Shown here: piece by piece, positions 16,107-63,078 of the stretch
Numbering within the stretch: position 1 is the first letter of the stretch
How the letters are laid out: each line of letters begins with the position of its first letter
Origin: Pseudomonas sp. DTU_2021_1001937_2_SI_NGA_ILE_001
GTDB taxonomy: Bacteria > Pseudomonadota > Gammaproteobacteria > Pseudomonadales > Pseudomonadaceae
Length of the DNA: 64,000 bases
Reading direction: 5' to 3'
Assembly (NCBI RefSeq): GCF_032463525.1
Contig: NZ_CP135971.1
Coordinates: 1,116,001 to 1,180,000 of the forward strand
Notes under the pieces: model-generated
Seen by the model: the letters and a program-made list of their open reading frames with translations, nothing else
Databases searched by the model: none
Told to the model about the DNA's origin: nothing
Program-made: the position numbers and the translations under genes

Positions 16107-16180
16107 GGGCAATACAGGTCAGTTAGCCGTCATGTGTCTCAGTAGGAGCCAACTGTCTTTCACCGAAGATCGACCAACGG

Positions 16181-17110
16181 TCAAATTGCACCCTCTCGCC
16201 ATGGTGCACCATCTCGCACCATGGCGTTTAACCTCACCAGCAGGACTCGCATGCACGCCGTCAGCGCCACCTTCGCGCACTTACCTCGGGCGCGAAGTTG
16301 AGCGTATCGGTTCTTGAAGTCCTCGTTGTAACGGACCATCACCAAGGTACTCATGTACATCGCACGGCGTAGCTTCGCGCGTCCGCCGTAAATGTGCCGG
16401 TTACCGCGCTTAGTCCCACTGTCGTTGTTGTAAGGCGCCACTCCTGCCAAGGCCGCCACCTGTCCACGACTCAGATCCCCCAGCTCGGGCAGATAGCAAA
16501 ACAGGCTGGAGATCGACACCGCGCCGATGCCTTTGATCGCTTGCAGGCGGTCCACCAAGGCCCCATCGACCTGTCGAGTCTGTGCAGCAATGCGTCGGTC
16601 TGCTGCCTTGATCATCTCTTGGATTTTGGCATTGAGCTCCCGATAGGCCTGCTGCACTTCAGGTTCTTGCGCTTGTTGAATACGGCGACGGTTGTCATCA
16701 CGCTGCTGAACGAAGGCGTCACGCTGGTTCACCAGTTCGGTCAACTTATCGCGCGCTTCATCGGCCACCACAAACTCTTTCTTTCGCAAGGCATGGGCGA
16801 ACATGGCCAGCATCTGCGCATCGATCGAGTCGGTTTTGGCTTGCTTGCCCATGGCCAGAGCGAACTGGCGAGCACGCAGCGGATTGATACGCATGACCTT
16901 GAATCTGGCCTTGGCCAGGAGTTTGACCGATAACCTTTCATAGCCGCCTGTGGCCTCAACCAGTACCTGCTCGACCCGGTTATCACTCAACCATTGGATA
17001 AGCTGGTGGATTCCTTCAGAGGTGTTGGTGGTGCAGAAGCTATTGCTCTGGGGATACAGCGCAATCTGCAGGGTATCTTTGGCGACATCGATTCCGGCGT
17101 AGGCGGTCAT
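16181..17110 (-). CDS. IS110-family transposase (DEDD recombinase)
   Basis: The 309-aa protein has the N-terminal RuvC-like DEDD domain (D8 in GIDVAK, E52 in VEATGG, D94 and D97 in KTDSID), a coiled linker (~115-175), and the C-terminal Tnp domain with the conserved serine (S231 in NDSGTKRG). Length and motifs are full for the family, so it looks intact. IS110 recombinases work with a bridge RNA made from the element's own non-coding end to choose donor and target. The matching RNA candidate lies just upstream, at 17111-17320. The gene is transcribed toward the NRPS operon, convergent with the exporter gene. Confidence 0.95.
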   Translation of the reverse strand: MTAYAGIDVAKDTLQIALYPQSNSFCTTNTSEGIHQLIQWLSDNRVEQVLVEATGGYERLSVKLLAKARFKVMRINPLRARQFALAMGKQAKTDSIDAQMLAMFAHALRKKEFVVADEARDKLTELVNQRDAFVQQRDDNRRRIQQAQEPEVQQAYRELNAKIQEMIKAADRRIAAQTRQVDGALVDRLQAIKGIGAVSISSLFCYLPELGDLSRGQVAALAGVAPYNNDSGTKRGNRHIYGGRAKLRRAMYMSTLVMVRYNEDFKNRYAQLRARGKCAKVALTACMRVLLVRLNAMVRDGAPWREGAI

Positions 17111-17320
17111 AAGAAAAACCTCTAGGCTTAAGGGCGAGAGGTCACTCTGAACGGGCTCACGCTTGTTGTTCGAGGTCGGACTCAGTCAACTGTTCGAGCT
17201 TGGAGTCAGAGTGAAAAGAGTGGATGGCAGTTGGGCTCCTACACGTGCTCCAGGGCACCGCGGCTTAACAGTTGCCATCCACCCCTCTCACCTCTGACTT
17301 TACCCTGTCGAAAGACACAA
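17111..17320 (-). ncRNA. Candidate bridge RNA of the IS110-family element
   Basis: Read on the minus strand, this leader forms two large hairpins in the bridge-RNA order. The first has a perfect 10-bp stem (17273-17282 with 17220-17229). Its loop contains AAGCCGC (17260-17266) and then GTAGGAGC (17235-17242), matching the left and right halves of the REP target on opposite strands. The second has a perfect 8-bp stem (17206-17213 with 17143-17150). Its loop contains ACAGTTG (17187-17193), identical to the last bases of the element's right end, and an ACAACAA tract whose ACAA can pair with the first bases of the left end. This fits target-binding and donor-binding loops. Transcript ends are unknown, so the coordinates are the whole non-coding end. 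Confidence 0.7.
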
Positions 17321-17403
17321 GCGGCTTTAGCCGCGAAGCGACCGCATGTTCACAACAGATGCAGCGAATTTCCCGGCGCTTTCGCGGCTGAAGCCGCTCC
17401 TAC
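17319..17403. repeat. REP pair (REPIN), left arm split by the insertion sequence
   Basis: Two REP units in inverted orientation: GCGGCTTTAGCCGCGAAG from 17321 and TCGCGGCTGAAGCCGCTCCTAC ending at 17402. The spacer between them is shared with REP pairs elsewhere in the window. The missing 5' part of the left unit (GTAGGAGC) is on the far side of the insertion sequence at 16142-16149. Confidence 0.85.
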
Positions 17404-62412: not shown

Positions 62413-62514
62413 CGAGTGCCCTTTGGCGGTTCGGCGGGCAGACGGGACGCCGACCGCGCACGATGCACGACCGGATTCGCCACCGGATCACCCCGCCCGG
62501 TTTGAGTGTGAATG

Positions 62515-62700
62515 CTTCGAGGCAGGTCTCCTGGCTTGCGGCGAGCCCGGCCGTCGGGCCCGGGCATTCGGTGCGCCTTCCCGCGCTGGCAGTGGCGTGG
62601 CACCGAACATGACCGCTTACAGTTGCGGGGGCAGCTGCGGCTTGTGCCCTGGCGGGGCCCGCATTCCCATTTTCAGCCCGCTCGCGCAGGCAACCTCAAA
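62515..62700 (-). promoter_or_regulatory. Cobalamin riboswitch upstream of cobW
   Basis: Read on the minus strand, this has the conserved cobalamin-aptamer blocks: GCTGCCCCCGCAACTGTAAG (around 62616-62635), a GGGAAGGCGCACCGAA segment (around 62565-62582), and the B12 box AGCCAGGAGACCTGCC (about 62521-62536). It should lower expression of cobW-cobN-chlD when adenosylcobalamin is plentiful. Edges are approximate. Confidence 0.9.
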
Positions 62701-62779
62701 GGCGCAAGGCTACGCAGTGCCCAGCGGCAGGTCAACGTCGAGATTGACGCCCCGGCACGACCATGCTCTGCTACACACC

Positions 62780-62978
62780 TTGTTACGGGTGCCCCTCGCG
62801 GGGTGAAACGGGAAACCGGTGCTGCGCCGCTGCTGTCCGCGCGTCGCAAAGTCCGGTGCTGCCCCCGCAACGGTAAGCGAGCGAAAGGCCTATCCACTGT
62901 GCCGTTGGCATGGGAAGGCGGCCTTTGTCACGGCGCCCTGGCGCCCCTCGCCAGCCCGGAGACCGGCCCGCCACGAAC
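62780..62978 (+). promoter_or_regulatory. Cobalamin riboswitch upstream of cbtB
   Basis: The plus strand has GGTGCCCCTCGCGGGGTGAAACGGGAAACCGG (from about 62789; AACGGGAAACCGG is typical), the core GCTGCCCCCGCAACGGTAAG (62859-62878), GGGAAGGCGGCC near 62912 and the B12 box AGCCCGGAGACCGGCC (62953-62968). It precedes the cobalt-uptake genes cbtBA by about 100 nt, so B12 controls cobalt import. It is divergent from the cobW riboswitch, with only about 80 bp between the two aptamers. Confidence 0.92.
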
Positions 62979-63078
62979 CTTTCGATGACCTGCGGTGGGC
63001 GGGTGCATTCGCTGCCTGCCGGGCGTGCCCGGCGGTGCGTCTGCGCATGGCCTGCCCCTTTTGTACGAGGCAAGCCCC

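Follow-up and report, generated by a model that had tools for sequence, protein, structure and literature searches.

A putative bridge RNA in the left end of a REP-inserted IS110-family element of Pseudomonas

The DNA analyzed here is a stretch of 64,000 nt from Pseudomonas sp. DTU_2021_1001937_2_SI_NGA_ILE_001 (referred to as the window), which carries an IS110-family element on the (−) strand at positions 16149 to 17319. The element spans 1,171 bp between two CT cores, and its left end (LE, 17319) and right end (RE, 16149) were placed by means of eight copies in the same genome and the homologous ends of relatives. Its single gene (16181 to 17110, [−] strand) encodes a transposase/recombinase of 309 aa with a DEDD domain (PF01548, 7.7e-23) and a Ser domain (PF02371, 1.9e-15), and the protein matches the solved structures of IS621 (8wt6, E = 4.4e-26) and ISCro4 (9t56, E = 2.4e-25). 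An earlier note on this DNA had called an IS110 element, and these domains together with the homology to IS621 bear that call out. Residues D8, E52, D94, D97, and S231 are invariant in an alignment of 30 recombinase proteins and would have the catalytic roles that the alignment assigns to them from the IS621 papers. The gene is preceded by a non-coding LE of 209 nt (17111-17319) and followed by an RE of 32 nt (16149-16180), and this arrangement of a long non-coding LE upstream of a PF01548/PF02371 transposase gene and a short RE is that of the IS110 group. Within the element, no Rfam family scored above its gathering score, and no near match to the element was found among the PLSDB plasmids.

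The element interrupts a REP. On the (−) strand, the left half of this REP including the core CT (17320-17321) reads GGCTAAAGCCGCT (17320 to 17332), and the core CT with the right half reads CTCCTAC (16142 to 16148). We found seven full copies in the genome, which differ from the one in the window in 0 to 5 places, plus one copy of 417 bp, and a PF02371 search of the same genome returned seven places, namely the seven full copies. All eight copies found occupy the identical REP position in the identical orientation (...AAGCCG-CT, element, CT-CCTAC...). Uninterrupted AAGCCGCTCCTAC sites number 172 in the host genome, against 7 for the reversed control. Four of them lie in the window itself; the nearest exact free one, at 17391-17403, is ~70 bp from the occupied REP and has the inverted orientation. 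The 417-bp copy (L008, own genome C1 548965-549400) is internally deleted and sits at a REP target; it retains the whole leader and both ends, with only the first part of the transposase gene, and is a possible MITE-like derivative mobilized in trans by the full copies. A clean orthologous empty site was not found among the 29 genomes searched: in the genome nearest in this region (G002), a match to the upstream gene (88%) is followed by that genome's own REP array, and the stretch downstream in the window has no match there.

Read 5′ to 3′ on the (−) strand, the leader consists of a 10-bp stem strand, a left target guide (LTG), a hairpin, a right target guide (RTG) followed by CC, and the closing strand of the stem; its second half continues with a second stem, a left donor guide (LDG), a hairpin, a right donor guide (RDG) followed by CG, the closing strand, the RBS, and the ATG. 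The features described in the earlier note were all found in place on this strand, with some adjustment of their limits. Specifically, the target-binding stem-loop (TBL, 17220 to 17282) has the perfect 10-bp stem proposed there (GTGGATGGCA/TGCCATCCAC, 17273-17282 paired with 17220-17229) and an apical hairpin at 17245-17259, while the stem of the donor-binding stem-loop (DBL, 17142 to 17214), given as 8 bp, extends to 9 bp with an additional U-A pair (17206-17214 paired with 17142-17150). The LTG, AAGCCGC (17260 to 17266), is identical to the left half plus the core C of the left flank ...AAGCCG-CT and would pair with the bottom strand of the target, and the RTG, GTAGGAG (17236 to 17242), is complementary to the core and right half of the right flank, CT-CCTAC. 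The location and opposite senses of these two words were as the note had them, except that its right-hand word, GTAGGAGC, runs one base past the core. In the donor loop, the LDG, ACAGTTG(a)CT (17184 to 17193), matches the RE end, ACAGTTG(G)CT, and the RDG, ACAAG (17162-17166; 17160 to 17166 with the following CG), is complementary to the core CT plus TGT of the LE; both donor words had been recognized, the second as ACAA alone, one base too short. At the handshake positions, the CC after the RTG can pair with GG of the donor and the CG after the RDG with CG of the target.

These matches are rarely reproduced by chance. When the 208 nt from 17111 to 17318 were shuffled 20,000 times with dinucleotides preserved, both target guides occurred in order in three shuffles, and all four guides in order in none. 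The stretch 17130-17290 folds into the two stem-loops at −61.2 kcal/mol (z = −2.81), and none of 200 shuffles was equally stable.

Conservation of the fold among relatives, which the earlier note had named as a check, was examined in an alignment of 41 different left-end sequences from Pseudomonas, Luteimonas, and a few others, with transposase identities of 41-100%; the 41 include four from the host genome itself, and several are only a few bases apart. Among the 37 distinct RNA rows, 99.1% of the cells of 31 pairs were paired, and 16 pairs were changed on both sides. In 500 shuffles, neither the observed share of paired cells nor the number of both-side changes was reached (0/500 each), and the number of pair types was reached in two; slid structures yielded 2 to 5 pairs changed on both sides, versus 16 for the true register. 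Compensatory changes were present in both stems, affecting 9 of the 10 pairs of the TBL stem and 5 of the 6 pairs of the DBL outer stem. The donor guides ACAGTTG and ACAAG, which match the RE and LE ends, are nearly invariant among relatives, so there is little covariation in them to test. In a genus-wide DNA search, many relatives were matched through the leader alone (query positions ~7-176).

Next, guides were compared with targets. The element ends were located through the homologous sequences CTTGT[GA] and GACAGTTG and not through the guides; since CTTGT[GA] defines the LE, the search presupposes the left core CT. The tally covers 76 insertion sites, told apart by their flanking sequences, and 18 guide types, with the first RE used; left out were 13 loci lacking a left flank or RE, loci with no recognizable LE (L078, L049, and L084), and loci with less than 41% transposase identity. 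The 7-nt RTG was fully complementary to the core and right target at 76 of 76 sites. LTG positions 1 to 9 were identical to the target at 23, 46, 66, 53, 71, 75, 75, 44, and 0 sites, respectively, with G-U pairs at a further 15, 2, 7, 18, 5, 0, 0, 5, and 0. Counting G-U, at least five of LTG positions 2-7 were paired at 71 of the 76 sites; at the other five, only three or four of the six were paired, which counts against a bridge RNA. The same holds for the core T, which the LTG matches at 0/76 sites; the core C is matched at 44/76 (plus 5 with G-U). The RTG and RDG include the core, and the LDG matches it only in the window clade.

Guides fit the targets of their own type better than those of other types, at 5.57 versus 4.10 of 7 positions on the left and 5.00 versus 4.16 of 5 on the right. 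A permutation over the 18 guide types gave p = 5e-6 (left) and 1.5e-5 (right), values that are rough because the guide types share ancestry. The earlier note had held that unchanged loops at unrelated targets would speak against guidance, and a right target unlike the RTG was seen at 0 of 76 sites. One nearer but partial relative, G068 (76% over the half of the gene present, on a contig that ends before the leader), has the right flank CT-CACTC, which is not REP. The handshake bases gave a mixed picture. Those of the DBL match the target in the window element (CG/CG) and change along with it in two lineages, L102-L104 (TG/CA) and L106 (AG/CT); at least three other lineages (L036/L055, L048, and L079-L083) lack this tracking, which counts against the proposal. 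In the TBL, the second handshake base suits the donor for the window clade (CC/GG) and for relatives that carry CA; for many relatives with CC or CT it does not, which likewise counts against the proposal.

Each of the three closest elements for which both ends were recovered has a guide pair of its own. Specifically, the window type has the LTG/RTG pair AAGCCGC/GTAGGAG, the element of G018 (68% transposase identity) ATTCGC/GTGGGAG, and that of G364 AGCTCGC/GTAGGAG. In G018, the six copies listed, of at least six, all sit at [AG]ATTCG-CT-CCCAC, and in G364, the best five listed all sit at [AG]AGCCCG-CT-CCTAC. Free AAGCCGCTCCTAC, AATTCGCTCCCAC, and AAGCCCGCTCCYAC sites number 172, 0, and 0 in the window's host; 1, 134, and 0 in G018; and 0, 0, and 480 in G364. 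Because each guide matches the REP type abundant in its own host, the guides follow the host REP class, and because guide type and REP class go together, the two are not separable within most hosts. A weak exception is G364, which has 283 CCTAC and 197 CCCAC sites and in which the five listed copies all chose CCTAC, as the RTG predicts (probability by chance, 0.07). In three G364 copies at different REP sites (L177, L178, and L179), the transposase gene contains a single internal TAG while the leader and both ends are present, suggesting that these copies spread in trans once the gene had been disrupted.

A −10-like TAAAGT lies in the LE at 17297 to 17302 on the (−) strand, and only in the circle junction is it placed 17 bp from TTGGCT of the RE (TTGGCT-17-TAAAGT). 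The pattern TTG-17-TANNNT occurs at the junction in 41 of 41 left-end sequences and reads the sense strand. The window clade has an additional G at the RE and lacks one base before the −10 in the LE; the 17-bp spacing is thus kept. The predicted junction promoter matches the consensus at only four of six bases in each hexamer in the window element, which counts against it, and a strict promoter scan of the integrated copy returned none. At the left junction (17321-17334, [−] strand), the left REP half together with the element's first bases makes a terminator-like hairpin trailed by Ts, and this could screen the leader from transcription that starts outside.

Taken together, the left end very probably encodes a bridge RNA that guides the IS110 recombinase to REP, and the reading of REP targeting by RNA put forward in the earlier note gains support from the conserved fold and from guides that track targets in relatives. 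The sequences themselves show the guides, structure, target, core, and tracking of targets by guides; transcription, RNP formation, and strand exchange are proposed by analogy with IS621. A bridge RNA of an estimated ~155-160 nt would be made from the (−) strand 5′ of the transposase gene, probably from the promoter that exists only when the excised circle abuts RE and LE, and would bind the IS110 recombinase. The first loop would pair with the two opposite strands of the REP site AAGCCG-CT-CCTAC, and the second with the junction of RE and LE in the element itself, ACAGTTGG-CT-TGTGTC, after which the recombinase would exchange strands at the shared CT core and the circle would enter REP DNA in one orientation.

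The leader could instead be merely a structured 5′-UTR or antisense target that regulates translation of the transposase, as in ISPpu9, with the REP matches as by-products. ISPpu9, a REP-inserted IS110 element, has a 244-nt 5′-UTR and an antisense RNA, Asr9, according to the account in PMC8450116, and the window has a CCTCTC (17136-17141) able to pair with AGAGG of the RBS. The corresponding CUCUC is present in the last 62 nt of 38 of 38 distinct leaders folded, with a mean computed pairing of 0.26 with the 5′ strand and 0.31 with the RBS region, the latter rising to 0.46 when 12 nt are trimmed from the 5′ end; for the window element, the respective values are 0.33, 0.53, and 0.79. What regulation by itself leaves unexplained is that the target matches are of opposite sense, that they change with the target, and that other words match both element ends, and we therefore consider it very improbable as the whole account. 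Regulation and guidance are not exclusive, and the same RNA may do both. A two-state leader, in which the CUCUC 3′ of the donor loop would alternate between a 5′ GAGAG, pairing with which closes the bridge RNA, and the RBS of the transposase gene, seems unlikely to us, the computed pairing being mixed; if it does exist, it would link guide-RNA folding and recombinase translation in one transcript.

There is similarly little probability that the functional RNA is the antisense strand, with an IS1111-like order of guides. The antisense strand does fold more stably (−70.8 versus −61.2 kcal/mol), which counts against a sense-strand bridge RNA, and the ISPpu9 leader is described as yielding abundant antisense RNA (PMC8450116). 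On the other side, the conserved pairs contain 63 G-U cells versus 5 A-C cells when read on the sense strand (27 versus 5 without one near-invariant G-U pair), and this large excess favors sense-strand RNA. The sense order, with the bottom-strand match first, is moreover that of the tested IS110-type element, whereas the antisense order is that of IS1111, as given in PMC11187229, and the junction promoter pattern also reads the sense strand. A third account, in which the protein alone recognizes REP and the loop words are functionless REP fragments captured nearby, may draw on how common REP-like words are in a host with 172 exact sites; it is strongly disfavored, to the point of being nearly negligible, by the rarity of both halves in order among leader shuffles, by their opposite orientation around a conserved hairpin, by the match of the same columns to other targets in relatives that use them, and by donor guides that match the element's own ends rather than REP.

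A bridge RNA in this element would follow a mechanism already known from IS621, so the element is a new, well-supported case rather than a new mechanism; among the literature matches listed for IS110 elements and bridge RNAs, none is a paper on this very element. The use of a bridge RNA by the REP-targeting IS621 was established by Durrant 2024 (PMC11208160), the guide positions and the handshake concept come from Hiraizumi 2024 (PMC11208158), and the guide order and the natural redirection of relatives were described by Siddiquee 2024 (PMC11187229). The window element resembles IS621 in its DEDD/Ser recombinase, its CT core and REP target, and a predicted bridge RNA in the LE 5′ of the gene that places the target loop before the donor loop. 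The order and strands of the guides, the promoter pattern at the junction, and the tolerance of LTG mismatch are also alike. It differs in that the recombinase is distant (E = 4e-26) and that a separate stem-loop 5′ of the guide loops is absent from the fold of 17130-17290 and from the consensus fold. Furthermore, the LTG matches the core T at 0/76 sites, whereas the core takes part in all four guide pairings of IS621 as reported in PMC11208160 and PMC11208158; the RTG has 7 nt instead of 4 (other orthologues are reported to have longer RTGs as well); and the window clade has one extra base at the RE.

In Pseudomonas, ISPpu9 and ISPpu10 were described as inserted in REP by Tobes and Pareja 2006 (PMC1525189). 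By description rather than sequence, ISPpu10 of P. putida is alike in its IS110 group, its Pseudomonas REP target, its 2-bp repeat at a fixed REP position (PMC1525189), and four predicted guides, its LTG, RTG, LDG, and RDG being given in Extended Data Fig. 10c of Durrant 2024 (PMC11208160). ISPpu9 of P. putida KT2440, likewise by description, shares the IS110 family, seven copies in REP, and a long structured leader upstream of the transposase gene, which Gomez-Garcia 2021 (PMC8450116) thought to bury the RBS, and differs in the antisense small RNA Asr9, the downstream Ssr9, and a repeat that reads AG from the transposase side (CT here). Such a repeat reads CT on the Asr9 strand, and Asr9, an abundant and stable antisense RNA, may itself be the bridge RNA of ISPpu9; no paper joining Asr9 and bridge RNA was among the literature matches listed. 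The seekRNAs of ISEc21 and of IS1111 elements, as presented in PMC11187229, are also guide RNAs from the non-coding region (NCR) with top- and bottom-strand matches and natural redirection of relatives, but they have other targets, are described as 70-100 nt long, and were shown experimentally, whereas here we infer the RNA. The NCR of the window element lies upstream of the transposase gene with the bottom-strand match first; in IS1111 it lies downstream with the top-strand complement first.

Related recombinases whose guides follow host REP classes constitute a compact natural series of bridge-RNA re-programming, which makes its rules directly testable, among them an LTG without the core T, G-U tolerance, and a 7-nt RTG. 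One could also try the 309-aa recombinase together with the leader as a programmable recombinase of small size (the IS621 chain has 328 residues in the solved structures). Elsewhere in the window, two divergent cobalamin riboswitches lie back to back at 62504-62713 on the (−) strand and 62770-62985 on the (+) strand.
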